This document shows, one piece after another, positions 117 through 27,858 of a DNA stretch of 64,000 nt. Origin of the DNA: Desulforapulum autotrophicum (GTDB taxonomy: Bacteria; Desulfobacterota; Desulfobacteria; Desulfobacterales; Desulfolunaceae); the NCBI GenBank assembly GCA_020723285.1, contig DYJE01000001.1, positions 435,509 to 499,508 of the forward strand, in the 5' to 3' direction. A program made the translations under genes and the position numbers. A model generated the notes under the pieces. That model had not been told where the DNA came from and made no database searches. It saw only the letters and a program-made list of their open reading frames with translations. The number at the start of each line of letters is the position of its first letter. The first letter of the stretch is position 1.

Positions 117-1058
117 TCAGGCATGCTCATCCGCATTGGTAAGCACAACCTGCATGGATGTTGCCTGTGACGCATTTTCATAATAGGCCACAAAAGGCAG
201 GGTAACCTGAACACCTTTCGGGCCTTCAATCGCCGGCATATCTTCCTGATACTGCAACTCAGGCACCGTAAACGCCAGAACAGCCGCACCGTTTGTGAAT
301 GTGGCCACAATGGAACTTTCCGTTGAGCTCTGAGCTTTGAGAATCAGGGCTGTGTCCTCGAACAGGGCCTTCAAACTTCCGTTCACGGTATAAAGCCCGT
401 CCAGTATATTGTAGAGTTTTCCGGCACCGCCGATGCAGTAATTTTCAGTGTCCAGATTGAAATTCACATCAATACCAAAGGACATGGCGTTTTCAATCGC
501 TGAACCACCTTCTGTTAGTGCAAGATGACTGTTTTTCATACGGTTCATGGATACAGCTGTTGGAGTTGCATCAAATGGCGCTGTTTCAATGCTGTAATCA
601 GCACCCACAACACCCAGAGTTGCAACCAGCTCACCATCACCACCCATATCAATTTTCATGGTAGATATCTTACAGCCACGGTAGCGCATATACCGTGCTG
701 ATCCCAAATCCGTGAACTGAAGCTCAAGTGTAAACGAAGGCCGCACACCCCCGAGACCATACGTGTGAACATACGGGCCTGTTCCGGTTGTTATCGGGCT
801 ACCCATAGCCAGCCTGAGCCAGTACCAGAACGCCACGCTGTCAACCGGAACAACGATATCACCCGATGCGATCAGATTTCCGTCAAATGGCGCAGCGGGA
901 TTCAGGTTCCCACGAATCGTTCCAGCCGTGTTTTTTGGCCTTGATGCCTTAACCGTGCATGAGTTTACGGGCATCAAAAACCCGTCGGCAGGCGCTGTCT
1001 TGAATACGCCTTCAAAGCCGATAACAACCTGTGATTTAACTCCTGTGGCCTGGGCCAT
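117..1058 (-). CDS. Phage tail tube protein
   Basis: A 313-residue protein of mostly beta-strand character with no membrane segment, in the position of the major tail (tube) protein after the terminator and head-tail genes. Subunits of this kind stack into the hollow tube through which DNA passes in long-tailed phages. An AAGGAGGAT ribosome site precedes the ATG. It lies 12 bp after the 158-residue tail terminator gene. Family assignment rests on size, composition and order; a siphovirus or myovirus tube cannot be separated from this alone. Confidence 0.75.
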   Translation of the reverse strand: MAQATGVKSQVVIGFEGVFKTAPADGFLMPVNSCTVKASRPKNTAGTIRGNLNPAAPFDGNLIASGDIVVPVDSVAFWYWLRLAMGSPITTGTGPYVHTYGLGGVRPSFTLELQFTDLGSARYMRYRGCKISTMKIDMGGDGELVATLGVVGADYSIETAPFDATPTAVSMNRMKNSHLALTEGGSAIENAMSFGIDVNFNLDTENYCIGGAGKLYNILDGLYTVNGSLKALFEDTALILKAQSSTESSIVATFTNGAAVLAFTVPELQYQEDMPAIEGPKGVQVTLPFVAYYENASQATSMQVVLTNADEHA

Positions 1059-1070
1059 GGAATCCTCCTT

Positions 1071-1547
1071 TTAATACGGGCGTTGCCCGATGGTTCTTGG
1101 TTCATGAACAATGAATCTCATTCCGCACTGCAATAACGGCCAAGACTCAACAGGACTGTTATCAAGTTCAAGCTCATCCACGGTTGCATTGTTCGGCAAG
1201 ACACCCAGAAACGCATCAAGAACCAGTCCGTTGAACGTCTCCAATCTGTCAAGCCCTGCATTTTCGAAAACAAGCTGGCTTGAGTGCTTTACAATGTCCC
1301 TGTCATACAGATTACAGATGATGATAAATCTGTATTCAACAGGGTTTTTATCCGGGCCGGTTAACCGGCCTTCCGTCATGATTTCAACATAGGGGCAGTC
1401 GCGTTCACCGGGCGGCTTATCCTCATCCACACCGACAAACACCTTCATCAATCGCCCATAGGTTTGATAACTCCAGATCTGGATATCCGAATCCGTATCC
1501 ACCAGAGCAGCAACAAGCGCGTTTTTAAAAGCCGTGACATCCATCAA
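1071..1547 (-). CDS. Phage tail terminator / minor tail protein
   Basis: A 158-residue soluble protein between the head-tail joining gene and the tube gene, the usual place for the lambda gpU-type terminator that caps the tail tube and joins it to the head. Its start overlaps the end of the preceding gene by 4 bp (ATGA), indicating coupled translation. No catalytic motif is visible. The function is inferred from synteny and length. Confidence 0.6.
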   Translation of the reverse strand: MMDVTAFKNALVAALVDTDSDIQIWSYQTYGRLMKVFVGVDEDKPPGERDCPYVEIMTEGRLTGPDKNPVEYRFIIICNLYDRDIVKHSSQLVFENAGLDRLETFNGLVLDAFLGVLPNNATVDELELDNSPVESWPLLQCGMRFIVHEPRTIGQRPY

Positions 1548-1876
1548 CGGTTCCCCCTGTACCGGGATCTCTCATCATACACGATAGGTATTTTCCACCA
1601 GACCCCATCATGATTGATCCGTGTATCCCCGCCATTGTGGACATCAAACTGCTGTGATCCGATGGTGATGGTGTCCCCGCTCTCAGGTGCAGATATGGCC
1701 GTCTTAAGGATCTCAACCGTCCATGTAACAGCGTTCATGCTCCCGATCTTTTCATCACGGTTCACAAGGGCATCAAGTTCAACAGCAATGCCGTCAACGG
1801 GCGTGTATGTCACACGCTCCCCAAAAGCATTGAGCAATCCCTGTGCATCCCGTGCGGCGATTTCCTCAAGACCCAT
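1544..1876 (-). CDS. Head-tail joining protein (lambda FII-like)
   Basis: The 110-residue product starting MGLEEIAARD fits the small head-tail connector family of lambda gpFII. The open frame extends upstream to 1,999, but the ATG at 1,876 has an AAGGTGT ribosome site and the upstream residues are Cys-rich and unlike the family, so 1,876 is preferred. It lies between the small membrane-protein gene and the terminator gene in the morphogenesis operon. Confidence 0.65.
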   Translation of the reverse strand: MGLEEIAARDAQGLLNAFGERVTYTPVDGIAVELDALVNRDEKIGSMNAVTWTVEILKTAISAPESGDTITIGSQQFDVHNGGDTRINHDGVWWKIPIVYDERSRYRGNR

Positions 1877-1878
1877 GG

Positions 1879-2073
1879 TTACACCTTTTTCTTTCGAAGT
1901 TTCCTGATCGACTCCATAGCCTTTGGGGCATCGTGGATAATCCTTACAACCAGGCTCACAAAAACAAGAATAACGGTCACTTTTTGCACCGCGCCACACG
2001 CCCAGTCGAACATTGTTGCAAGATATCCGAACATAACAGTCCCATAAGTTTTAAGAGAGTCGAACAGGTTCAT
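1879..2073 (-). CDS. Small single-span membrane protein in the head operon
   Basis: About 64 residues (starting MNLFDSLKTY) with one hydrophobic stretch around residues 22-42 and a strongly basic C-terminus (RKLRKKK). The ATG at 2,073 follows AGAAGGGA and is favoured over upstream starts at 2,091 and 2,100. It sits between the capsid and head-tail joining genes. It could be a holin-like or envelope-directed protein, but an LLH-type holin is already encoded at 20,719, so no function is assigned. Confidence 0.5.
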   Translation of the reverse strand: MNLFDSLKTYGTVMFGYLATMFDWACGAVQKVTVILVFVSLVVRIIHDAPKAMESIRKLRKKKV

Positions 2074-2111
2074 AACAGATTCCCTTCTCATGGCGTTCAC
2101 CCTTCAGGGCA

Positions 2112-3110
2112 TCAGGCTGTGATATTATCGAACAGAAAAAAACAAGACGCGGCAATGTTACTCACAACAGTTCCGCTTGAGTTGAAAGACTGAATCAACC
2201 GCTCATCAACCGAATGACGAACACGGTAAACATCAGACCTGATTTGTTCTTCGCGGTAAACCTCAACAATGGGGTTGTCGCTTGAATCTTCGTCCCAGAT
2301 AAACGTTCTGCCCACACAGGGTTCGGTCGGGTCCAGAGTTGTAGCAACCCTTGCAAGAGCAGCGTATTCACTGTTCCAGATATCCGTGATGGATTTGCTC
2401 CGCCCCTTGTTCGCGCTGTCATAAACAGCATTGCCAACAAACACACGGGGCACGTCAAAAATTGCGGCAAGCTGTTCAGACGTCATTTTGTTGATGTCGA
2501 TGCCAGGGAAGGTGTATTTCAGACGATTCACAATCTGATCACAGTTTTTGAGATCCTGAAACGTGGACCATGCAATAATCAGAGCGTTCGGAAGCATGCC
2601 GCACTGCGCCCTGAATGCTGACACACCGTCTTTCACATCCGTGATGGGCGTTGCGTTCACTGCATCATCCCATTCGTTGGTCACAGCATGGGCGGTGAAA
2701 TTGGTTTCATTGAAAAGCTTGTTCGCAATCCGGTATTCCTGAGCCCTTGAAATAATACCAAGACCACGGCGCGTCACAATTGAGTCAACAATACCGGGAT
2801 TTCTGCGCTCAAAGATCTTTCGTTCATCATCGTCAATGGGCTCTTCATGGCCCTGCTCAGCGCAGTTGTAAAGACCTTCTTCGTATTCCCAGCCTGACCG
2901 GTTGTAAGCGCCACCGGACGAACGTTTGGTATCAGGCATTTTCAGAAGAGCCTCAGCAGGTATAACCTTATAAGCTCCCTGCTTGTCCGCAACGGGGAAT
3001 ACGGGCATGATTTGAGTGCCAATCATACCCATTCCTTCCTGTTCAAGATATTCCATAACAGAAACCCCAAGATCGGGTCTGTAAACGGGCGTTCCGTTCG
3101 CTGGTCTCAT
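2112..3110 (-). CDS. Major capsid protein (lambda gpE-like)
   Basis: A 332-residue protein in the capsid slot directly after the decoration protein gene. The region with RRGLGIISRAQEYRIANKLF and the C-terminal part with WDEDSSDNPIVEVYR resemble gpE-family capsid proteins of phages with lambda-type head modules. It forms the icosahedral shell around the DNA and would be matured together with the S49 protease/scaffold encoded upstream. No separate scaffold gene is visible, consistent with the scaffold being the C-terminal part of the protease gene. Confidence 0.85.
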   Translation of the reverse strand: MRPANGTPVYRPDLGVSVMEYLEQEGMGMIGTQIMPVFPVADKQGAYKVIPAEALLKMPDTKRSSGGAYNRSGWEYEEGLYNCAEQGHEEPIDDDERKIFERRNPGIVDSIVTRRGLGIISRAQEYRIANKLFNETNFTAHAVTNEWDDAVNATPITDVKDGVSAFRAQCGMLPNALIIAWSTFQDLKNCDQIVNRLKYTFPGIDINKMTSEQLAAIFDVPRVFVGNAVYDSANKGRSKSITDIWNSEYAALARVATTLDPTEPCVGRTFIWDEDSSDNPIVEVYREEQIRSDVYRVRHSVDERLIQSFNSSGTVVSNIAASCFFLFDNITA

Positions 3111-3165
3111 AATAATCTCCTGTTAAAAAAAAGTGTTAATACCGAAGCTGCCAAAAATTAAGGCA

Positions 3166-3555
3166 CTACGATACAGTCGTTGTACTGGTATAGTCGTAAG
3201 GAAGAACCTCAATGATAGAGCCGTCAGCACTTGCCGCTTCCAGAGCGATACCGATTTTCAGATACGTCGCAGCCGCAGCCGGAAGCGCCTGGACCTTTCC
3301 TGATGCCGCAGCATAAACAACAGCGCCACTTGTAATGGCACCCGCCGCCGTCATTTCAATGGTTCCGCCCGTGTTGATCAATTCAACGGACACCACATCA
3401 GCCGCAGAACCATCCCGTAACGAGACACCAATGGGATCATCCGTCGCCGTTGCCGTATTCAGAACAACCGTTCCAGACGCCAGTTTCACAAGTCTGTTTG
3501 CGTAAACTCCGCCGATTCCGACGGTGAACGCCTTTGGACCTTTATTGGATTGCAT
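3166..3555 (-). CDS. Head decoration protein (DUF2190-like)
   Basis: A 129-residue, Ala/Gly/Thr-rich beta protein with short repeated strands, typical of DUF2190-type capsid cement proteins that bind the outside of the expanded head. An AGGAGAAAG ribosome site precedes the ATG. It lies between the protease and capsid genes, the same order as lambda C-D-E. Confidence 0.75.
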   Translation of the reverse strand: MQSNKGPKAFTVGIGGVYANRLVKLASGTVVLNTATATDDPIGVSLRDGSAADVVSVELINTGGTIEMTAAGAITSGAVVYAAASGKVQALPAAAATYLKIGIALEAASADGSIIEVLPYDYTSTTTVS

Positions 3556-3633
3556 GGCTTTCTCCTTTTTTCCCTGTTATTATCCGGACCTTTCAAAGAA
3601 AGGCCCATGATGCTTGTTTTCAAAAAAATGGAA

Positions 3634-4974
3634 CTATGCTTTTTTCTGCTTTCCCTTGAGCCATTTTTCATGAGCATCCGGGTATTTTTTAGCCATAGCC
3701 GCCATGGCCTCACCCTTGGCACAGTTCTTTTTATCCATGTGGTCTTCAACAAGAGCGTCAAAATCAAGACCCTCTGTTTCAACCCGATGCCCATCACCGC
3801 CCGCCGGTTTGTGAGTTGATGTTTTAAGCGCGTCAAGAATGGCTTTCCTGCTTTCAGCATCCTGATCATTTGAATCAGCCAAAGGTGTCACACCGCCAAC
3901 AACTTCAACCATAAGGGACGCCTGTTCAGCGGTGATTCCTGAGCTGACAAGTTTTTCAACTCGATCACCAACGTCTTTACCCGCGACAACGCACACCACG
4001 CCCATTGCGGAAGCGACGGCAGCCTTGACAGCTGCTTCCGTTTTAAGTTTTTCCGCAGCGGCCCCTTCGGCCATGACCTGATTGTGAATATCAGGGTGAT
4101 TGGCTTTCAATGTTGCCAGATCCATGAGTGTATCCTCCTCATTTTTGATGTATTCGATAAACGTATTAATGTCTGATTCGATCCGATCGATCAGACCGGC
4201 CTCAACTGCCGGGCCTGCCAGCAGAACTTTTGCTTCAAGATCCGTTATTTTTTTAGAGTCAATCCCCCTGTTTCCAGCAACATCAGCAACGAAAATGGCG
4301 TATGTCTGATCAAGGCTGCTCTGAACATAATCCAAAGCCTCTTTTGAAAGGGGTTCATCACTGTTCGGTATGGCTTTGTATTTACCAGCCGTGATGTGGG
4401 TATATTTAATCCCCATATTTTTATCGTATTCAGACCAGTCAGAATGGAGAGTCCGAACCCCGATGCTACCGATCTGAGCTGTTTCAGGAGCCGCAATCAC
4501 CTTTCCGACCGATCCAAGCCAGTACGCAGCAGACATCATGGAGCCATCCACATACGTGTAAATGGGCTTTTTTTCTGATGCCGCTCTTAAAAAATCAGCG
4601 CATTCCTTGCAGCCATCCACGGTCCCGCCAGGGGAATCAACGTTGAACAAAATGGTTTTTACGTTTGGCATAAGAAGGGCTTTTTCAACCTTTTCCCGGA
4701 TGCCCAAATACCCTGAAAACTCACGGCCTGAATAATAACTCATCCAGCCATGGTCTTTTGCTATGGCCCCGGTCATGGGAATAATGGCGATACCATCCAC
4801 CACACGGATATCGATGTTTTTTGGGTCACGGCTATCCACGGAAAAAGGAGCAAGGGCGGACTGAGCCGCTGAAACAACATGGGCCGCAATCATGTCAAGG
4901 GCATCACCCGTAATGGCCCATATCTGAGTGAGGCATGAAATCAATGGATTAATCGTCACTTGTTTTTTTGTCAT
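3634..4974 (-). CDS. Head maturation protease, S49/ClpP-like, with C-terminal scaffold
   Basis: 446 residues. The N-terminal 260 form an SppA/S49 serine peptidase: oxyanion segment NVDSPGGTV near 111-119, catalytic Ser in GSMMSAAYW (Ser148) and general-base Lys in AGKYKAIPN (about Lys200). The remaining 185 residues are charged and Ala-rich and probably act as the internal scaffold, as in lambda gpC/gpNu3. The gene overlaps the end of the portal gene by 26 bp, which suggests translational coupling. Confidence 0.88.
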   Translation of the reverse strand: MTKKQVTINPLISCLTQIWAITGDALDMIAAHVVSAAQSALAPFSVDSRDPKNIDIRVVDGIAIIPMTGAIAKDHGWMSYYSGREFSGYLGIREKVEKALLMPNVKTILFNVDSPGGTVDGCKECADFLRAASEKKPIYTYVDGSMMSAAYWLGSVGKVIAAPETAQIGSIGVRTLHSDWSEYDKNMGIKYTHITAGKYKAIPNSDEPLSKEALDYVQSSLDQTYAIFVADVAGNRGIDSKKITDLEAKVLLAGPAVEAGLIDRIESDINTFIEYIKNEEDTLMDLATLKANHPDIHNQVMAEGAAAEKLKTEAAVKAAVASAMGVVCVVAGKDVGDRVEKLVSSGITAEQASLMVEVVGGVTPLADSNDQDAESRKAILDALKTSTHKPAGGDGHRVETEGLDFDALVEDHMDKKNCAKGEAMAAMAKKYPDAHEKWLKGKQKKA

Positions 4975-6508
4975 CGCCTTCTTTTTCCTCTTTTTCCGAA
5001 TTGATCACGATGGATGTCTGGGCAACCATGGCCCCTTTTTCACGTTCCATCTCAATTTCAATGCCCCGTTGTTCGATATTGCTTTCCCAGTCACCACCCA
5101 GTTCAGCGGCAATCTGTGCCAGAGTCATCATGTTATGCTCTTTGGCCATGATATAGGCGTCCATCTCTTTTTTAGGATCAACACTGCCCTTCTTGGGTGG
5201 TATCCACATGGCTCTGGTGTAAAGATGACGGGCTTCATAAAAATCAGGTGACCCCTTGGGCAGAACGATCATGCCACGAAGCCAGGCTTCTTCCATCACC
5301 ATGTCCCAGCAGGGTTGACACAGAGTATCCACCAGCCATTTCTGATAAAATGCATAAACACGCCAGGCCTCAAGCAGCGCAGCCCGAGCGGATGAGTAAT
5401 TGGTTTTTGAAAAGTCTTTTGCGATCACTTCATAGGGCTGACCAGCCGCCGCCCCAATGGCACGAAGAAGCCGTTCGACAAACGTGTCAAAAGCATTGCC
5501 CGGACGATCCGTTTTCAAAACATGGGGACGCTGATTCAAATTTCCGTAAAGAATCTGGCCCGGCTCCACTTCCTGATAGCGTGAATCGGAAGAAGATGTC
5601 ACGGACGTGCCGTCAAGGTTTGATCCAAGACCCATAGCCGTTCCACCCGGATCGCTGGTTTCAATAAAAAGTGGAAATGAGCTGGTGATAATGGCCCCGA
5701 TCAATTCAAAATCGAGATAATCGGCCAGATCACGAATCAGCTTCATGGCTGGACTCAATATGGGAATACCACGGCCCTGCTCATCTTCTTTCTGGATAAA
5801 TCCATGAAGCATGCCGGGCCTGTGTGAGTTTTGTGCAGGAATTATGGTGAATTTGTCCGAGTTCAGGGACATTCTGGAATACATTTCGCGGGTATTGGCC
5901 ACGCAATACCCCACGGGTTCACCATATTCACCAAGAACAATGCCGTCACGGATTTTTGAATCCGTGCGTTTATCTGATGGCGTGAATATGCGAGAAGGGT
6001 CAATCCCCTGGAGCGCAAACGAAAACGGAACAAGGGGCCTGTCCACCATCACGGGTTGCCTGAAAAACTCACCCTTCATCAGCATGGAATAGGCTGCGAT
6101 ATACTGGATCTGCCAGAATTTTAAACGGCCACGGATATCGGCATGTTTTGACCACAAGGTCCATGCCGCCTCAGCCTGATCCTGAAAATAACGGCTTTGT
6201 TCACGATTCCAGCCCAGCAGTTTGGCATATGGGTTTGCCTGGGGCGTGAGTCCGGTCCCGGAAATATTAATGCCCATGCTGTCAATGGTACTTGCAGCAT
6301 GGGCATCGTTTGCAACCACATCCATGGAACGTTCAACAACGGTTTCGCGCTCCGAACGTTCGGACGATCTATTCAGACGATTGACAAGCCACTTGGACAT
6401 TTGCCCGGATCGTGACCCTGATTTTTTTGAAACACCATAAACATCAGAATTGACCACTGGCTTTGGTGACCGTCTCAAATCCAAATTCTTGATTGCGTCA
6501 ACAGCCAT
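4949..6508 (-). CDS. Portal protein (lambda gpB family)
   Basis: 519 residues, the usual length for the lambda family. Typical features are the N-terminal RxxRDxxRNxxxA-like region around residues 55-75 (ERSMDVVANDAHAAST), which this family uses near the clip, and the middle FSFALQGIDPSRI segment. It forms the ring at one head vertex through which DNA is packaged by the terminase and ejected. The start overlaps the stop of the gpW-like gene by one base. Confidence 0.9.
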   Translation of the reverse strand: MAVDAIKNLDLRRSPKPVVNSDVYGVSKKSGSRSGQMSKWLVNRLNRSSERSERETVVERSMDVVANDAHAASTIDSMGINISGTGLTPQANPYAKLLGWNREQSRYFQDQAEAAWTLWSKHADIRGRLKFWQIQYIAAYSMLMKGEFFRQPVMVDRPLVPFSFALQGIDPSRIFTPSDKRTDSKIRDGIVLGEYGEPVGYCVANTREMYSRMSLNSDKFTIIPAQNSHRPGMLHGFIQKEDEQGRGIPILSPAMKLIRDLADYLDFELIGAIITSSFPLFIETSDPGGTAMGLGSNLDGTSVTSSSDSRYQEVEPGQILYGNLNQRPHVLKTDRPGNAFDTFVERLLRAIGAAAGQPYEVIAKDFSKTNYSSARAALLEAWRVYAFYQKWLVDTLCQPCWDMVMEEAWLRGMIVLPKGSPDFYEARHLYTRAMWIPPKKGSVDPKKEMDAYIMAKEHNMMTLAQIAAELGGDWESNIEQRGIEIEMEREKGAMVAQTSIVINSEKEEKEGDDKKTSDD

Positions 6509-6732
6509 CAGCGCCTCACCATTCCAACATTTACATAAAGTTTTCCGGTTCCGCTGGACAATGCCTGTTTTTCTTCTTCAAGCCATTCCAACGTTTTTCT
6601 GATCTCAGGCAGATCTTCACGCTTTAGCGTTTTTCCACCTGCCGTATATTCTTTGCTCATCGACAAGGCCATAAGGGCCTCTTTGTATGCCGCCATCTGA
6701 GCGTCTATTTCTGCGATGGTGAAAATAGCCAT
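6508..6732 (-). CDS. Small head-tail joining protein (gpW/DUF6148-like)
   Basis: 74 residues, two helices joined by a short turn (residues 5-26 and 38-58) and a C-terminal strand. This size and position, directly before the portal gene, match gpW-type connector proteins. It is the last head gene before the opposite-strand insertion at 6,983-8,400. Confidence 0.72.
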   Translation of the reverse strand: MAIFTIAEIDAQMAAYKEALMALSMSKEYTAGGKTLKREDLPEIRKTLEWLEEEKQALSSGTGKLYVNVGMVRR

Positions 6733-6809: not shown

Positions 6810-6840
6810 GTCATTCGCGTGGTGCGCGTCATTCGCGTGG
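6810..6840. repeat. 13-bp direct repeat in AT-rich gap
   Basis: GTCATTCGCGTGG occurs at 6,810-6,822 and again at 6,828-6,840. It lies in the 250-bp gap between the gpW-like gene and the + strand module. The remainder of the gap (6,841-6,980) is very AT-rich and could hold the promoter of the module, but no clean -35/-10 pair was found. Confidence 0.6.
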
Positions 6841-6982
6841 TTCACAACTATTTTATAAAATACTGATTTAATTCATGATAAAAATTCGTATTTTTTCATT
6901 ATTTTGATTGATTGTTGCTTATACTGTGATTGTAAACAAAAATAATCCTTGTTTGTAGCTACAAAAAGAGCTATATTTACCC

Positions 6983-7879
6983 ATGCAATTTGAATGGGAC
7001 GATCAAAAGCTTGAAAAAAACATCGAAAACCACGGACCGGATAAAGAGCACCCGTTCGGCCATAATAAACGAATGTTCAAGATCAATTTGAATTTTAATA
7101 ATGACTATTTTGTCGGTTTGTTTTTAACGATCAAAGACCATAAAAAATTCTGCCAGCTAAAAAACGAATCAGGAAAGCTTACACTTAAAGTCAGCAGCAC
7201 CGACCCAGATGCCAACCTGATGGATTTTAATTTTTTTGCTATTCATAAACAAACAGGCGCTGGGATATACCAGCACTATCACCAGTCTTGCAGTCTGAAT
7301 CAATTTTGCATTTTTCTTCAAAACCGTTTTCGTGATTATAAGGATATGTGCATAAAATCAGATTATTTAAAACTCGCTGATCCAACCAATGAAAAAGAAC
7401 AGAAAAAAGTACGTGCCAAATATTCGAACGATAAATTCAATCACAGCATGATATTAAGGGAAGAAGATTTTATTGAAATTCTTAATGAATTCGAAAAAAT
7501 AAACTCATTTGAATTTAATTATTCTATCCTGCATTCCGAAGAACAGAATTTTTCTATGCTCAAAGACATGATCCAAACCGAGAAGATCAAGGTTTTATTT
7601 AAAAGAGATACACATGTTTCTATCCTTGCATCTGCTATCAGTGGCATAAAAAACAAACTTTCAATTAAAAAGGGAACTGTAAGCGGGAAGGATAGTGAAG
7701 GCAAGACAAGGGTTATCGATCTTATTGACAACCCAAACAATTTTGGTGAATATGAATTTGATGAAGTTGCTTCGGAGCTTGATTCACTCGATGTCAATAA
7801 ATTTGAATCGAGTTGGCTTGTTACTGAAATACTAAAGATATGCAAAGCGAACGAATATTTTCTTAAACATATTAAATGA
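6983..7879 (+). CDS. Unknown cytosolic protein of an inserted two-gene module (RexA-like arrangement)
   Basis: 298 residues, soluble, Lys/Asn/Phe-rich, with no signal peptide or recognised catalytic motif. Its base composition is much more AT-rich than the flanking phage genes and it runs against the direction of the head operon. Its end overlaps the start of the four-span membrane protein by 4 bp, so the two are translated together. Size, order and partner resemble lambda RexA (279 aa) with RexB (144 aa, four spans), which exclude other phages. This is an analogy of architecture; no convincing sequence identity is claimed. Confidence 0.75.
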   Translation: MQFEWDDQKLEKNIENHGPDKEHPFGHNKRMFKINLNFNNDYFVGLFLTIKDHKKFCQLKNESGKLTLKVSSTDPDANLMDFNFFAIHKQTGAGIYQHYHQSCSLNQFCIFLQNRFRDYKDMCIKSDYLKLADPTNEKEQKKVRAKYSNDKFNHSMILREEDFIEILNEFEKINSFEFNYSILHSEEQNFSMLKDMIQTEKIKVLFKRDTHVSILASAISGIKNKLSIKKGTVSGKDSEGKTRVIDLIDNPNNFGEYEFDEVASELDSLDVNKFESSWLVTEILKICKANEYFLKHIK

Positions 7880-8400
7880 AAAAAAATCTTATTATATCCT
7901 TATCGATTGCATCTGTTATGCTCGCATGCCTCTATGCCATAACTGTTATGGATATAATATCGAATGTAAAAATAGTTGATTTTTATTCCGCGAATATAAG
8001 ATCAAGCCTTTTTTCTAGCTTTCTCACTCTGAGCGGCTTTTTGTTTTCGCTGAAAACATTCATTATCGTAAAAATGAAAGAAGGCGTCTATGATAATGAA
8101 ATATATAAAGATCGGGTCAAAGACTTCCGGAAGATAAACCCTTCAATATCGCATTATGGCCCACTTAAACGTCTGGGCCATCTTCTATTCTTTACCATTT
8201 TATCTTCTCTTGTAACTTCTGTATTTCAACTGACCATCGGTTTAACAAAATGCTGGCCGCTAATCTATCTTTGCATCGGTTCCGCAATTTTTTCGATAAC
8301 CATGTTCGTTATTTCACTGTTCTATATCAAAAAAAATCTTGATGATTGGTTTGAGTTCCTGGAAGAAAACTCACGCAAACTCAAAAATGACATGGAATGA
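7876..8400 (+). CDS. Four-span membrane protein of the same module (RexB-like arrangement)
   Basis: 174 residues with four hydrophobic segments at about 4-26, 46-66, 100-121 and 126-151, and a charged loop at 67-98. The ATG overlaps the stop of the upstream gene (ATGA). In RexAB and other two-component exclusion systems a soluble sensor activates a membrane partner that depolarises the cell. A similar role is inferred here from topology, coupling and location. KwaA of the Kiwa system also has four spans, but in Kiwa the membrane gene comes first. Confidence 0.75.
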   Translation: MKKNLIISLSIASVMLACLYAITVMDIISNVKIVDFYSANIRSSLFSSFLTLSGFLFSLKTFIIVKMKEGVYDNEIYKDRVKDFRKINPSISHYGPLKRLGHLLFFTILSSLVTSVFQLTIGLTKCWPLIYLCIGSAIFSITMFVISLFYIKKNLDDWFEFLEENSRKLKNDME

Positions 8401-8537: not shown

Positions 8538-8810
8538 TCAGTTAGGTTTATCACCCCGTGTCATCATCAGATCCCATTCGTCTGAAATAACATCCCATTC
8601 ATCCGAAACAACATCTACGAATTGTTTTTTTATATAAATTCTACCGTTTCCATACGGTTTACCACCATATCCAGGCCCAGAAAGTTCAAGATAGTCAGGT
8701 TTCCCAGGGCATTCAAACGCATCACAAACTGGCATAACACAACCCTCTTGCACCTGGTAAAATGTTCGATCCTGGAAAAACACAGCGCCTTGTTTTATTG
8801 TGACTTTCAT
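8538..8810 (-). CDS. Hypothetical small phage protein with a repeated SDEWD motif
   Basis: 90 residues starting MKVTIKQGAV. An SDEWD motif occurs twice near the C-terminus (VVSDEWDVISDEWD). The ATG at 8,810 overlaps the upstream stop (TGATG) and follows GAGGTGG; a GTG at 8,813 is the alternative. It sits between the terminase-linked HTH gene and the + strand insertion, so its normal neighbour would be the gpW-like gene. Function unknown. Confidence 0.55.
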   Translation of the reverse strand: MKVTIKQGAVFFQDRTFYQVQEGCVMPVCDAFECPGKPDYLELSGPGYGGKPYGNGRIYIKKQFVDVVSDEWDVISDEWDLMMTRGDKPN

Positions 8811-9040
8811 CACGCCACCTCATTCTGATCGTTCATAATTTTCACAAGATCAGACTCATAAACCCGTATGCCTTTTTCAATTCCAAATTTAAAACTATTG
8901 AGCTTGTTATCATTGATCATGTTGTACACATGACGGGTTGAACATCCCAACCGATCAGCAACCTGCTTGACCGTGAGCACAGGATTTTCAGCATCTTTCT
9001 TGTTTTTCAGATTCCGCGCATAAACGGATGAATGGGCCAT
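8810..9040 (-). CDS. Excisionase-family (MerR-like) HTH protein
   Basis: 76 residues. Residues 22-68 match the helix-turn-helix_17/excisionase pattern: LTVKQVADRLGCSTRHVYNM (helix-turn-helix) followed by a wing with KFGIEKGIRVYESDLVKIM. It lies 11 bp after the terminase large-subunit gene, far from the integrase, so it may be a transcription regulator of the late operon rather than an excisionase. Confidence 0.75.
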   Translation of the reverse strand: MAHSSVYARNLKNKKDAENPVLTVKQVADRLGCSTRHVYNMINDNKLNSFKFGIEKGIRVYESDLVKIMNDQNEVA

Positions 9041-14259: not shown

Positions 14260-15039
14260 TTATGAATAAGCTTCCATTAAAACAGCCACAGCGCGCCGTA
14301 TTTCAGAGGCGCGTGGTGGAGCATAGCCGTATGCCCATCGGTTTTCAATTGTTGAATAGCCAAAACGCCTATACCTTCCAGGCTTTCCATTAGCACCCAT
14401 CCTGTTACGTGCATAAACATTCAACCATTCATAGTTGTTTTGAGGAACAGCAAAAACAGCTTGCGACTCTCCAATATCACAAACAACATACCTCTGGTAA
14501 GGCACCACACCCTTTTTCTGTTCATGGGCAGACGTTAAAATGAGTTTTGAATAATCAGGAAGATGATCTATCGTTCCGTGTTCAAAAATGGCAGATATAA
14601 GATGTTTGCATAATCTACGTGGGTCTGTGGCATTAAATTCAGACCTTACTTCAACAAAATCTCCGCAAGTGCATCTCATAATATCTAAATCAACACGATA
14701 CGTAACGTTCTTGTCAGAAAAGCTCTTGATCTGAACAGGGCCTTCTAAACAAGGCGGGATTTTTATTGAAAGATCATGGCAATAAAACCGTTTCGAAAGG
14801 TCATTATTTTTTTTGTTTTTATATAATCCTGACTTTTGATCATATCCATCACTTTCTGTATAACCAGCGCCGCTTTTCATTTTTAAATTTGCGTATATTG
14901 CACATACAGCAATAAAAGCGATAACAACCCCTGTAATGATTATCCCTGAATCTCCAAATTTATCATGAATTATGCCTAAAACAATAAATAAAACAAATAC
15001 TATTAAGCATCCGGAATCTTGATTCTTTTTTTTAGCCAT
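14260..15039 (-). CDS. SWIM zinc-finger protein with N-terminal membrane segments
   Basis: 259 residues. Two hydrophobic segments (about 10-25 and 31-51) are followed by a cytosolic part with a SWIM motif CxCx18CxH (Cys123, Cys125, Cys144, His146). SWIM fingers bind nucleic acid or protein. It lies 17 bp after the HsdR-like nuclease gene, in the same direction. The pairing of a membrane-anchored SWIM protein and a nuclease in the immunity region of a prophage suggests exclusion of other phages, but that is inference. Confidence 0.7.
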   Translation of the reverse strand: MAKKKNQDSGCLIVFVLFIVLGIIHDKFGDSGIIITGVVIAFIAVCAIYANLKMKSGAGYTESDGYDQKSGLYKNKKNNDLSKRFYCHDLSIKIPPCLEGPVQIKSFSDKNVTYRVDLDIMRCTCGDFVEVRSEFNATDPRRLCKHLISAIFEHGTIDHLPDYSKLILTSAHEQKKGVVPYQRYVVCDIGESQAVFAVPQNNYEWLNVYARNRMGANGKPGRYRRFGYSTIENRWAYGYAPPRASEIRRAVAVLMEAYS

Positions 15040-15056
15040 TTTAACTCATACCCATT

Positions 15057-16133
15057 CTACGAAAGGTATGAGTTTATAACATTAAGAATTTTATCAGAAT
15101 GTTGATATAGATCCGTAATATCATCTATGGGAATTCTGTTTTCTTCCTTATTTGAATCAACAATCCCTAAATATTTCTGCTTTGCATTGAACCATAGACG
15201 GCACACTGGCCTTCGGTTATTATCGTCAAGAAGAATACCAAGATATGACTTTGTATCACGATGAACAATTCTTGAAGGAGCCACAACTTTTGATGCAATA
15301 GCCCTTATAATATTAAAACCATCAATTTCAAGTTCCGTTGTTACGATTCCATTATCTATTTGCCGATCTGAATTATTGCCATTATTGCTTGGTTCAACCC
15401 GATCACTAAAATCTTTTTCATTTTCAAGAGCGCTTCTAAGCCTGTCATTTATCTTATCGCTTATAAATTGGTGGAATCCTTTTGAAACAAGAGGAGTAAA
15501 CTGTTCTTTCATGACAGGCGTAAATCGTCCGCCAGGAACAACTCTCTGGAATATAAACTTTATGAGATCCTCCTCAGGGGACTCAAGCTGCATTGCAAAA
15601 ATCTTAATTACTTCATTCGTGTATTTAAGTTCACTCGCAGTACTCAACATGCGCTCAAGGTCAAAATCATCCTTTGCCATTTTTCTGACTTCGGCCAGCG
15701 CGTTTTGTTTTGGGTTTTCGAGGTCAAGTTCAAGAAACGGTTTATCATCCATCTTGTTTTTTTCATCAAGATCTGAAAAAAAACGGTATTGAATTCCGTT
15801 TGTCAGAATGGCGATCCTGGCCTTCGTTGTATTAAAATACCTGTAAAGCTGACTGTAATTTTCTTTAGAAAGATCCACGCCCGATTTTTTACACTCAATA
15901 AGGATAATGGTTTCACCATCTTTCACGATGGCATAATCAACCTTTTCACCTTTTTTTGTCCCAATATCAGCAGTATATTCCGGAATAACCTCTTTTGGAT
16001 TAAAAACATCATACCCAAGAGATGATATAAACGGCATAATAAGGGCATTTTTCGTGGATTCTTCTGTTTCAAGAACATCTTTGATTTTTGGCAGACGTTG
16101 AACAAGTGCAGCTATCTTTTCGTCAAAGCTCAT
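15057..16133 (-). CDS. HsdR N-terminal-like nuclease (type I restriction enzyme R family)
   Basis: 358 residues. The N-terminal half matches the type I restriction enzyme R protein N-terminal domain with a PD-(D/E)xK core: Asp66 (KVDYAIV), Glu80-x-Lys82 (LIECKKSG). The translocase motor, HsdM and HsdS are absent, so this is a stand-alone nuclease; the C-terminal 100 residues (from ELEIDGFNIIRAIA) form a separate small domain found in this family. It lies between a hairpin-rich region and the SWIM gene, in the area where prophages often carry defence genes. Confidence 0.82.
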   Translation of the reverse strand: MSFDEKIAALVQRLPKIKDVLETEESTKNALIMPFISSLGYDVFNPKEVIPEYTADIGTKKGEKVDYAIVKDGETIILIECKKSGVDLSKENYSQLYRYFNTTKARIAILTNGIQYRFFSDLDEKNKMDDKPFLELDLENPKQNALAEVRKMAKDDFDLERMLSTASELKYTNEVIKIFAMQLESPEEDLIKFIFQRVVPGGRFTPVMKEQFTPLVSKGFHQFISDKINDRLRSALENEKDFSDRVEPSNNGNNSDRQIDNGIVTTELEIDGFNIIRAIASKVVAPSRIVHRDTKSYLGILLDDNNRRPVCRLWFNAKQKYLGIVDSNKEENRIPIDDITDLYQHSDKILNVINSYLS

Positions 16134-16340: not shown

Positions 16341-16829
16341 CTAAACGGCTGTTTTTTTTTCTTCGGGCGCTTGAACCTGTTGTTTTTCAAGCTCTAAAAT
16401 CCTGTCCCGAAAATGGTTTCGCTCTTCTCGAAGATACTTGATTTCCTCCCTCAGAGCGGCGAGTTCATCCCTGTAGTGCAGGATGATTGCATCGTCTTTA
16501 ACTTGATCCATCCCATTACCCACCTTTGCATCGTTACTGTTTTGGTTGATGCCGCTGCTTTTACTATGAGTAACTGGATTTTCACCATTCTCCAATCGTC
16601 GGCCAAGATCAAGGAAATTTTCGTAACCATAACCACAGGCCTTTGCAAGGTTAACCTGAGTCCTCATTGATGCTTTCTTGATAGAATTTCCGCTAAGTAT
16701 CTGACTTAACAACGGCCTCGATATTCCGGCGTCAATGGCAATTATTTTTTGAGCACCATGCCCCATTCCATCAGAACAATGCTTAAGTGCCCTTAAAAAA
16801 TATGAATATAGAGAATCAGGTGTTTCCAT
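16341..16829 (-). CDS. Phage HTH regulator with C-terminal coiled coil (repressor-like)
   Basis: 162 residues. The N-terminal 75 residues form a lambda-repressor-type HTH (QKIIAIDAGISRPLLSQILS), and residues 115-150 form a heptad-rich coiled coil (ELAALREEIKYLREERNHF) that would mediate oligomerisation. There is no S24 peptidase domain, so RecA-triggered self-cleavage is not expected. It is divergent from the Cro/CI-like gene at 16,933, with a shared promoter/operator region between them. Confidence 0.75.
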   Translation of the reverse strand: METPDSLYSYFLRALKHCSDGMGHGAQKIIAIDAGISRPLLSQILSGNSIKKASMRTQVNLAKACGYGYENFLDLGRRLENGENPVTHSKSSGINQNSNDAKVGNGMDQVKDDAIILHYRDELAALREEIKYLREERNHFRDRILELEKQQVQAPEEKKTAV

Positions 16830-16848
16830 AGCCTTAATTAACCACGGG

Positions 16849-16926
16849 CAAATAATTTATTAAAGATAAAATTATTTGACAAAAGCAAATTATTTTATTG
16901 ACAAGTTGGTATTGGCTAACTATAAA
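16849..16926. promoter_or_regulatory. Divergent promoters and operator of the phage switch
   Basis: Rightward: TTGACA at 16,898-16,903, 17-bp spacer, TATAAA at 16,921-16,926; the start point would fall at about 16,933, on the ATG itself. Leftward: TTGTCA (complement of 16,876-16,881), 17-bp spacer, TAAATT. A perfect 10-bp inverted repeat (CAAATAATTT 16,849-16,858, AAATTATTTG 16,869-16,878) covers the leftward promoter, and a related CAAATTATTT lies at 16,886-16,895 next to the rightward -35. These are the likely operators. Confidence 0.7.
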
Positions 16927-16932
16927 TTTGCC

Positions 16933-17136
16933 ATGATCAAACTCAATCAAAAGACAATCGCAAAGAAAGCGGGTATAAGCGAACCATTTGTTAGCCAAAT
17001 AGTTAACGGTAAAAAGCGCCCAACATGGACAAAGGCAAAAAAATTAGCTGACGCCACCACCACAAACCCCGAACTCTGGCTCGAAGGAACCCCGGACCAG
17101 ATCCGGGACGCCATCAAGAACGCATCAAAACAATAA
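16933..17136 (+). CDS. Cro/CI-like HTH protein, probably leaderless
   Basis: 67 residues starting MIKLNQKTIAKKAGISEPF, an HTH_3 fold (QKTIAKKAGISEPFVSQIVN) with a C-terminal tail. The frame is open from a TTG at 16,876, but the consensus promoter ends at 16,926, so transcription should begin at or next to ATG 16,933, as for lambda cI from PRM. Its last 54 bases are part of a 58-bp block duplicated at 17,526. It would act as the partner regulator of the divergent gene at 16,341. Confidence 0.75.
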   Translation: MIKLNQKTIAKKAGISEPFVSQIVNGKKRPTWTKAKKLADATTTNPELWLEGTPDQIRDAIKNASKQ

Positions 17137-26535: not shown

Positions 26536-26912
26536 TCATGACATCAGAAGACCTGACCCAAGAATTCGGACGCTCCATAAAACCGAAAGATCTCGCAAAA
26601 TATCTTGACATCGATGTCCGTACATTAAAAAAATACGCTCATCTATGGGGAGGTGTTTACGTTACAGACACCGACGTCAGGTTCTTTGAAAATTTGGTAA
26701 AGGAGGCAATAAATAATGCCAACACTTATAGAGAAACGCGGAAAGAAACGATGGAAAGCGGTAGTATATGTCGACCACACCCGCAAAGAGAGACTGTTTC
26801 CGGACAGCACCAAACAGTCAAAGTCGGACGCGATAAAATGGGAAGAAGAAACCAGGAAAGCATTGATACGCCAAAAGACCGCCATGGAATCTTTGCATGT
26901 GTCGGTCGTTGA
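26532..26912 (+). CDS. HTH protein overlapping the integrase gene
   Basis: 126 residues. The first 62 contain a compact HTH (KPKDLAKYLDIDVRTLKKYA), as in AlpA/Xis-type regulators and excisionases. From 26,716 the frame runs out of phase through the first 197 bp of the integrase gene, giving a C-terminal half of shadow-like composition. Either a real long overlap or loss of an earlier stop codon has occurred. Start overlaps the antirepressor stop (ATGA). Confidence 0.6.
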   Translation: MIMTSEDLTQEFGRSIKPKDLAKYLDIDVRTLKKYAHLWGGVYVTDTDVRFFENLVKEAINNANTYRETRKETMESGSICRPHPQRETVSGQHQTVKVGRDKMGRRNQESIDTPKDRHGIFACVGR

Positions 26913-27858
26913 CTGGGCGAATCAATACCTGGATTTTGTTCAAACACGTTTCGTTAAAAAAACGTTCGTTGAAAAAAAATCCGCCCTCGGCAAACTTGCT
27001 ACACATCCGTTAATCCATCCAGAAACATCATGCAATGAAATCACGATAAAAATCGCTGAAGAAATTCTAAGAGACAAACTTTCCACATCTGGATCGTCAG
27101 CAAACAAGCTCAGGAAGCACCTTTCAGCGGCGTGGGCATGGGGAATGAAATACATTGACGACTTTCCCCAGGCCAATCCATTTGCAAGGATTCAAAAGTT
27201 TCCAGAAATTCAACAGCCTCGGTATGTTCCACCTGAAGAAGATTTCTGGAAGCTCATGGAGTACATATCCGGCCTTGACGGAATCTCAGCGAAACAGGAT
27301 CGGGTCATTCTCCTGACATATCTTCATTGTGCCGGTCGCCGCGGTGAAATATGGCGGCTGAAGTTTTCAGACCTGGACTTCCGGAACAACCGGATCCGCC
27401 TATGGACCCGAAAACGGAAACATGGGAATTTTGAATCAGACTGGCTTCCAATGACATCCGATCTTTCAGGTGCTTTGAAAGACTGGGCCGAAGAACGTTT
27501 GAAAATGGCCACAGAAGATAAAGAGCATGTTTTCATCAGCCTTGAAAACACGCCGTTTTGTGAAGAGTATTATGGCAAACCGTTCAACGAGCGCCGCCAC
27601 TTCATGAAACGCAGCTGCATACGAGCAGGCGTGACCCCGTTCGGGTTTCATGCCATCCGTCACCTGACGGCCAGCATACTCTATCGAAGCGGTCAACGCA
27701 TGGGAACGATCCAGGCCATACTGAGACATGAAAATAAAAACACCACCGAGCGATATGTCCGCTCATTAGGAATCGACGAAGTACGCCCCGACCTTGAAAA
27801 GGCCCTGGCAGCCCCGTCAAAGGTAATCCGGATCGAGGCAATAAAAAAAGCCGGATGA
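26716..27858 (+). CDS. int: Tyrosine recombinase / phage integrase
   Basis: 380 residues. It integrates and excises the prophage. N-terminal arm-binding domain (PTLIEKRGKKRWKAVVYV), core-binding helices (about 60-145) and catalytic domain with Arg in CAGRRGEIWRL (about 208), HxxR as HAIRH (about 311-315) and the nucleophile Tyr in TTERYV (about 346). AAAGGAGG lies upstream of the ATG. It ends 88 bp before the tRNA-Glu 3' end. Confidence 0.95.
   Translation: MPTLIEKRGKKRWKAVVYVDHTRKERLFPDSTKQSKSDAIKWEEETRKALIRQKTAMESLHVSVVDWANQYLDFVQTRFVKKTFVEKKSALGKLATHPLIHPETSCNEITIKIAEEILRDKLSTSGSSANKLRKHLSAAWAWGMKYIDDFPQANPFARIQKFPEIQQPRYVPPEEDFWKLMEYISGLDGISAKQDRVILLTYLHCAGRRGEIWRLKFSDLDFRNNRIRLWTRKRKHGNFESDWLPMTSDLSGALKDWAEERLKMATEDKEHVFISLENTPFCEEYYGKPFNERRHFMKRSCIRAGVTPFGFHAIRHLTASILYRSGQRMGTIQAILRHENKNTTERYVRSLGIDEVRPDLEKALAAPSKVIRIEAIKKAG

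Follow-up and report, generated by a model that had tools for sequence, protein, structure and literature searches.

Rex exclusion is a classic abortive-infection system, and the RexA/RexB pair of phage lambda is the first of the systems with which the locus reported here is compared. Five Rex systems have been described so far, as counted in an excerpt of PMC12894663. The same excerpt presents RexABpp of the Pseudomonas putida prophage P1 (PP_5643/PP_5644), whose RexA-like protein is structurally similar to RexA with a DALI Z of 8.8 and whose partner is a four-span membrane protein. Both genes are required for defence, and the overexpressed RexA-like protein is toxic only with the membrane partner present (PMC12894663).

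The window analysed here is a stretch of 64,000 nucleotides from Desulforapulum autotrophicum. A preliminary description, made from the sequence and its open reading frames, had pointed to two coupled genes within it as a possible RexAB-like exclusion system. Gene 1 (P0001, 6983-7879, plus strand) encodes a protein of 298 residues, predicted to be soluble and RexA-like from the open reading frame list, a family match and a structural model. Gene 2 (P0002, 7876-8400, plus strand) encodes a membrane protein of 174 residues with four spans and a RexB-like topology. Both genes are present as described, coupled by an ATGA overlap at 7876, and hydropathy agrees with the description in giving four spans for gene 2 and none for gene 1. 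The pair is also as AT-rich as had been claimed, with a GC content of 0.34 for gene 1 and 0.35 for gene 2, compared to 0.46-0.53 in the head genes (those at 117-6732 and TerL). At 8538-9040, two small genes have a GC content between these values (0.41), and further AT-rich stretches are found in the window at 13.7-16 kb.

Matches to PHROGs confirm that the pair is inserted on the opposite strand in a minus-strand head operon, between the terminase genes and the gpW and portal genes. In this operon TerL (phrog_15), portal (phrog_21), head protease (phrog_53) and major head protein (phrog_1005) are recognised, as well as a terminase small subunit by a weak match (E 0.0002). One edge of the slot holding the pair is formed by the gpW-like head-tail adaptor (phrog_118, 6508-6732, minus strand). 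At the other edge are a 91-residue gene of unassigned function (8538-8813, minus strand) and a 76-residue HTH_17 protein (8810-9040, minus strand). The latter follows directly after TerL in four of the eight relatives discussed below (L124, L125, L127 and L128). A short direct repeat, gtcattcgcgtggt, can be seen by eye at 6810-6841, where a spacer separates the pair from the gpW-like gene. PHROGs also identify an integrase (26716-27858, plus strand). The pair is not beside the prophage repressor, as it would be in a lambda-type arrangement: repressor-like genes lie about 8 kb away at 16341-17136, of which 16876-17136 is assigned by PHROGs and 16341-16829 by eye. In some actinophage Rex systems the genes are likewise inverted and distant from the repressor, as far as the excerpted text describes them. 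Near the repressor region, at 14260-16133, there is a second AT-rich minus-strand pair, possibly another cargo or defence module; one of its proteins has a SWIM-like cysteine motif, read by eye, and the other belongs to an endonuclease family (phrog_4225, E 4.8e-123).

For neither protein had a family been recognised in the preliminary description. This is wrong for gene 1, which matches phrog_2802, a family of unknown function, over residues 27-284 (E 3.9e-42). The comparison with Rex gave a divided answer, as sequence kinship to RexA or RexB was not found while the predicted fold of gene 1 is that of RexA. At the sequence level, neither P0001 nor P0002 matches RexA (PF15969) or RexB (PF15968) in Pfam up to E 10. 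The 38 members of the gene 1 family match 27 Pfam families at E 1, and RexA is absent among the best 25 of these; RexB gives no match at E 0.01 among the 32 gene 2 members. The positive controls were found with ease, lambda RexA matching PF15969 at 1e-97 and lambda RexB matching PF15968 at 8.5e-92. In hhalign comparisons of the two families with lambda RexA, a four-member RexA alignment and RexB, the probability was at most 0.21 on the percent scale.

Profile searches against PDB chains found nothing for gene 2, while the matches of gene 1 (portal proteins and others, best E 0.00075) were judged to be noise. PADLOC has no match for P0001, and its only match to gene 1 members is a weak one to PDC-S21 (E 0.0077, one member of 38). 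A link of gene 2 to the SLATT domain (RTasSLATT, E 0.0019) was dropped because only one of the 32 gene 2 members, P0002 itself, shows it.

The structural link is seen in the predicted models of gene 1. Among 995 PDB chains aligned with the model of P0001 (pLDDT 85.5, pTM 0.70), lambda RexA (8TWQ) ranks first, with a Z of 8.5 that is only a little above the 7-8 typical, according to the tool, for models without a clear match; the next chain reaches 6.0. The superposition aligns 220 residues at an rmsd of 9.1, and this high value may be an effect of the domain movement that the RexA paper proposes. Since P0001 has an unusual N-terminus, discussed below, an intact homologue (L106:5917-6852) was modelled too. 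Its model (pLDDT 91.1, pTM 0.85) has RexA as the best of 998 chains with a Z of 10.8 and an rmsd of 3.3 over 147 residues, the next chain being at 6.5. The two models share one alignment and are therefore not independent. The alignments used for folding (A5/A6) have 36 rows, compared to 38 in the gene 1 family alignment A3: L022 stands in for the phage-record row L007, and L110 and L113 were left out. In addition, five open reading frames were shortened at their upstream end to begin at the conserved start, and three were used without their non-ATG start codon.

The RexA fold has two domains and is related to RdgC. The structural relatives named for RexA in an excerpt of PMC11077077 are RdgC, Iml3, Chl4, Cas2 and a sugar epimerase. 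RdgC and Iml3 entries occur in the structure lists of both models (Z 4.6-5.2), whereas Cas2 and a sugar epimerase are not among the listed matches of either. Chain N of the yeast and human CCAN is also listed for both models (Z 4.8-6.5); we take this chain to be Chl4/CENP-N. Foldseek places RdgC first for both proteins, clearly for the L106 homologue (E 1.4e-5, probability 1.00) and weakly for P0001 (E 9.7e-3), so that the P0001 model has no PDB match at E <= 0.001; RexA is absent among the 50 Foldseek matches listed for either model. A search of BFVD with the gene 1 model returned three unnamed phage proteins at E <= 0.001. Taken at the level of the predicted models, with Z of 8.5 and 10.8, gene 1 would have the two-domain, RdgC-related fold of RexA.

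The spans of gene 2 lie at residues 6-24, 47-65, 103-121 and 129-147 by hydropathy, and those of lambda RexB at 8-26, 48-66, 84-102 and 116-134. The charged loop between spans 2 and 3 contains nine lysines and arginines in gene 2 and five in RexB. Over the gene 2 family, the same hydropathy rule gives four spans in 22 of the 32 members and three in the other ten. The family has a conserved core, with R42, F46, F55, L56, F62 and Y77 invariant in all 32. The likeness of gene 2 to RexB is one of layout and topology rather than of detectable sequence kinship.

If the two genes form one module, they should be found together, and the preliminary description had proposed to check this. Profile-based scans find both genes in 61 of 62 distinct viral contigs, the exception being a contig that ends inside gene 1, and at 13 of 13 loci in a scan of genomes. 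These counts are lower bounds, since the scans rely on short peptide patterns. A first viral scan with P0001 alone as query had found no relative. The genome loci are from Methylococcaceae, a Bathymodiolus symbiont, Marinospirillum, Marisediminitalea, Kangiella, Parendozoicomonas, Alteromonas, Nitrosomonas, Denitromonas, Oxalicibacterium, Pseudomonas, a contig labelled Flavobacteriaceae and a Phycisphaerales MAG; the hosts include Gammaproteobacteria (E. coli and Pseudomonas among them) and Betaproteobacteria. The intergenic gap is -13 in 36 of the 62 viral contigs, many of which are near-identical enterobacterial copies. A divergent pair is found on the chromosomes of 218 of 5,426 complete E. 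coli genomes, with at least 80% of the query covered; 21 more E. coli genomes have a weak match, and the ones listed match only in Q. Two E. coli phage records contain a 28% identical homologue of gene 1 followed by a gene for a small membrane protein. In the genus to which L118 (Pseudomonas parakoreensis) belongs, four of the 398 genomes searched have family members, one of these being broken. P0001 has no match in the plasmid collection, and among 96 genomes of host relatives it matches two, one of which is its own genome while the other match is 33% identical and has three internal stops.

Gene 1 is split into two open reading frames in three viral contigs (L045, L047 and L048) and ends early in four more (L038-L041), which suggests decay in some prophages.

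The recurrence of the pair in distant phages and genomes is more than chance, and the pair is a widespread module hitherto unrecognised. In the literature searched we recognised nothing about this gene-pair family and no mention of phrog_2802. The RexAB-like reading of the preliminary description is thus supported by co-occurrence and, as far as the models are concerned, by the predicted fold that connects gene 1 with RexA.

The preliminary description did not recognise that gene 1 begins with foreign sequence: its first 18 codons, together with the 36 bases preceding them, are brnT-derived and do not belong to the gene 1 family. This segment (6947-7036, plus strand), consisting of promoter region, palindrome, start codon and 18 codons, is 88% identical over 90 bases to the beginning of a brnTA operon that the same genome carries on contig C90. 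Exact runs are shared at 6947-6975 (29 bases) and 6987-7008 (22 bases). Residues 1-18 of the protein correspond to the start of brnT, only the first 20 resemble BrnT, and the phrog_2802 part begins at about R30; P0001 has no PF04365 match. The remainder of the BrnT toxin and the BrnA antitoxin were not found at the window locus, and the three BrnT genes found in the genome are all elsewhere. In the alignment A3, 36 of the 37 other rows start with a native stretch (consensus MxVKxxGFSI...) that is missing in P0001. The one exception is L107, where the called open reading frame begins later; the native N-terminus is present in L007, the locus of the mEp460_4F5 pair of an E. coli phage.

Within the segment, the palindrome TTTGTAGCTACAAA (6952-6965, assigned to no strand) is a proposed BrnA operator. 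A possible -35 element (TTGTTT, 6949-6954, plus strand) and a possible -10 element (TATATT, 6972-6977, plus strand), both read by eye, are spaced by 17. A consensus promoter scan, whose promoters were no more numerous than in shuffles, did not list this brnTA-type promoter. The genome (5.44 Mb) contains the 12-base core of the palindrome at two sites, one being this segment and the other lying upstream of the C90 brnT. Because the same pattern read backwards, used as a control, is also found twice, the count is no evidence and the positions alone matter. Upstream of the brnT gene of L124 there is an analogous palindrome, TTTGTATATACAAA, at the same distance from the start. We also sought TGTA-N0-4-TACA up to 90 bases upstream of BrnT genes at 33 loci, of which 17 were recognised by motif and 16 were dropped; it is found at 3 of the 17, compared to 1.2% in base shuffles. 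The three include the C90 gene, which leaves 2 of 16 as independent support for the operator.

The similarity to C90 suggests that gene 1 has captured the start of a brnTA operon, and this capture is well supported. The identity of 88%, not 100%, speaks against a chimera with the C90 copy in the assembly. A second match between slot and C90 (8332-8366, E 0.002) was judged to be chance; the stretch is conserved in the closest gene 2 homologue. The simplest account, with an order of events that we infer, would be that in-frame recombination joined a Rex-like pair to the start of a brnTA operon, which replaced the native N-terminus of gene 1. Perhaps brnTA was formerly in the slot of the window, as it is in L124, and was displaced by the pair.

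Since BrnA is reported to bind the brnTA promoter (an excerpt of PMC10714953, citing Heaton 2012), it is possible, by analogy, that the BrnA of C90 controls the pair, its operon being in the same cell according to the assembly. It can be speculated, though we find it on the whole doubtful, that the pair is driven by the captured promoter with its operator and repressed in trans by this BrnA. Loss of BrnA during infection would then free the abortive-infection module, either in place of the RNase toxin or together with it. The C90 locus itself (L002) has its brnTA operon, recognised by Pfam, beside a gene that resembles a terminase small subunit, with a RelE-like gene nearby, both seen by eye; it probably belongs to a second prophage that carries cargo next to its terminase.

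The captured start also raises a minor but appreciable chance that the copy in the window is damaged. The family would be Rex-like, but the brnT start would have replaced the first strand and helix, and this module would no longer exclude phages. The near-universal native start of the other A3 rows speaks for this, as does the model, in which the first strand shrinks from residues 4-14 in the L106 homologue to 2-4 in P0001, where the pLDDT is about 75. Nevertheless, both frames are open without a stop and join in frame, in the model the borrowed piece forms a strand and a helix that keep their order, and the split and early-ending copies described above show that decay in the family takes other forms.

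The position of the pair can be understood from relatives of the prophage. In the two loci that show the whole slot (L124 and L125), the order TerS, TerL, HTH gene, slot, gpW and portal is kept, and the other six loci found by the portal protein show this order in part. Neither gene of the pair is matched in any of the eight, L130 and L131 being too short to include the slot. Instead, the slot of L124 (3195-4515) carries, on the opposite strand, brnT and brnA (PF04365, PF14384) together with a RelE toxin and its HTH partner, and that of L125 (4988-5570), also on the opposite strand, an HTH partner together with a ParE-like toxin that narrowly misses the Pfam cut-off. In L127 and L128 this place is taken by other open reading frames, of which the long ones share the strand of the head genes. 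As the contents of the slot differ between relatives, it is a space for variable cargo, and the pair in the window is a moron.

Elsewhere, 25 loci with the pair were inspected and ten neighbours were picked by eye, eight of them with a Pfam family; these are therefore examples and not a rate. On the contig labelled Flavobacteriaceae (L108, 129-3771) the pair lies between hsdS and the start of hsdR on one strand, i.e. a Rex-like module within a type I restriction locus. In L115 the pair has a type ISP restriction enzyme beside it on the other strand, and in L106 a PIN-domain gene close downstream. Phage genes are found as neighbours as well: an S24 repressor one gene away in L051, antiterminator Q in L018, a tape measure gene in L010, where the pair is on the other strand, and an integrase in L107. 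The gene upstream of the pair in L006 was first taken as a repressor and has no Pfam match. In none of the contexts inspected is a homologue in a structural or lysis role, the finding that the preliminary description had named as one that would speak against it.

We suggest that the window pair is a Rex-type superinfection-exclusion (abortive-infection) module, carried as reverse-strand cargo of the head operon, and put the probability of this reading, in which the function is assigned by analogy, at about three in four. It is supported by the two-gene operon, the predicted fold, the RexB-like topology, the cargo position and the restriction or toxin-antitoxin type of neighbours in some relatives. 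Against it are the lack of sequence kinship, the three-span prediction for ten of the 32 gene 2 members, the head-operon position away from the repressor and the missing native N-terminus of gene 1. The gene 1 protein, with its predicted RexA/RdgC fold and probably dimerising, would sense an infection signal, probably DNA or DNA-protein intermediates of an incoming phage. It would then trigger the four-span gene 2 protein, which would abort the infection by harming the membrane or arresting growth. Four elements of this scheme, namely DNA binding, the activation of the membrane protein by the soluble one, membrane damage and exclusion, are proposed from what is described for lambda RexAB and RexABpp.

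The roles could also be reversed, the soluble protein being the toxic effector and the membrane protein restraining it until infection, as an excerpt of PMC12894663 describes for Butters gp30/gp31. The gene layout is the same as in Butters, and adjacent or overlapping genes in a fixed order would suit a protein pair that has to be produced jointly. We nevertheless consider this improbable, as in RexABpp and Sbash the membrane protein is the effector and is required (PMC12894663 and PMC6426596, both in excerpt), and the core of gene 2, with its six invariant residues, is conserved. Kiwa (KwaA/KwaB), on the other hand, pairs a four-span membrane protein with a cytosolic protein, and the comparable pairing here could place the locus with Kiwa or another known two-gene defence system. 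This is very improbable: no match with a Kiwa name is found by PADLOC, which contains Kiwa models, for P0001 or the family members, and the fold search points to RexA and RdgC. That the pair serves lysis or the virion of this phage group is scarcely credible. The pair is surrounded by late genes, and a small membrane protein is often a holin; however, the pair is on the opposite strand to the late genes, is unmatched in the eight portal-found relatives, with other cargo in the slots of L124 and L125, and its E. coli phage homologues are near a separate annotated holin and endolysin or lysin.

The Rex-type reading can finally be set against the known systems. With lambda RexA/RexB, the window pair shares the two-gene operon with the soluble protein first and the four-span protein second, the predicted fold of gene 1 (Z to 8TWQ as given above), the spacing of the spans and the positively charged loop between spans 2 and 3. 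It differs from lambda in having no sequence or profile match, in its place outside the immunity region, in its brnTA-derived start and in the larger loop between spans 2 and 3 of gene 2. What is new is a module that is Rex-type by predicted fold and layout and lies outside Pfam RexA and RexB by sequence, with a captured start in this copy. RexABpp, compared by its published description only, similarly combines a soluble protein of RexA fold with a four-span partner; the family members in the genus of L118 could not be tied to PP_5643. The actinophage pairs Sbash gp30/gp31, CarolAnn gp44/gp43 and Butters gp30/gp31 have a Rex-like two-gene layout according to the excerpt of PMC12894663, again compared by description, and Sbash gp31 has, like gene 2, four predicted spans (excerpt of PMC6426596). 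A predicted RexA-fold family in many hosts would enlarge this known Rex set.

In lambdoid prophages of E. coli, an unnamed pair near Q is alike in protein family (phrog_2802) and gene order. It differs in being annotated as hypothetical, in an identity of only about 28% and in its native N-terminus (L007). This E. coli form of the module, found in 218 genomes, is open to direct test. BrnTA, lastly, shares with the window pair the promoter region, the palindrome, the start codon and 18 codons of gene 1, whereas the coding body in the window is Rex-like and the full BrnT domain and BrnA are not at this locus. The brnTA-derived start would be a concrete case of a defence module placed on the control region of a toxin-antitoxin system, one that a relative phage has in the very same slot, and it makes testable how prophage cargo becomes regulated.
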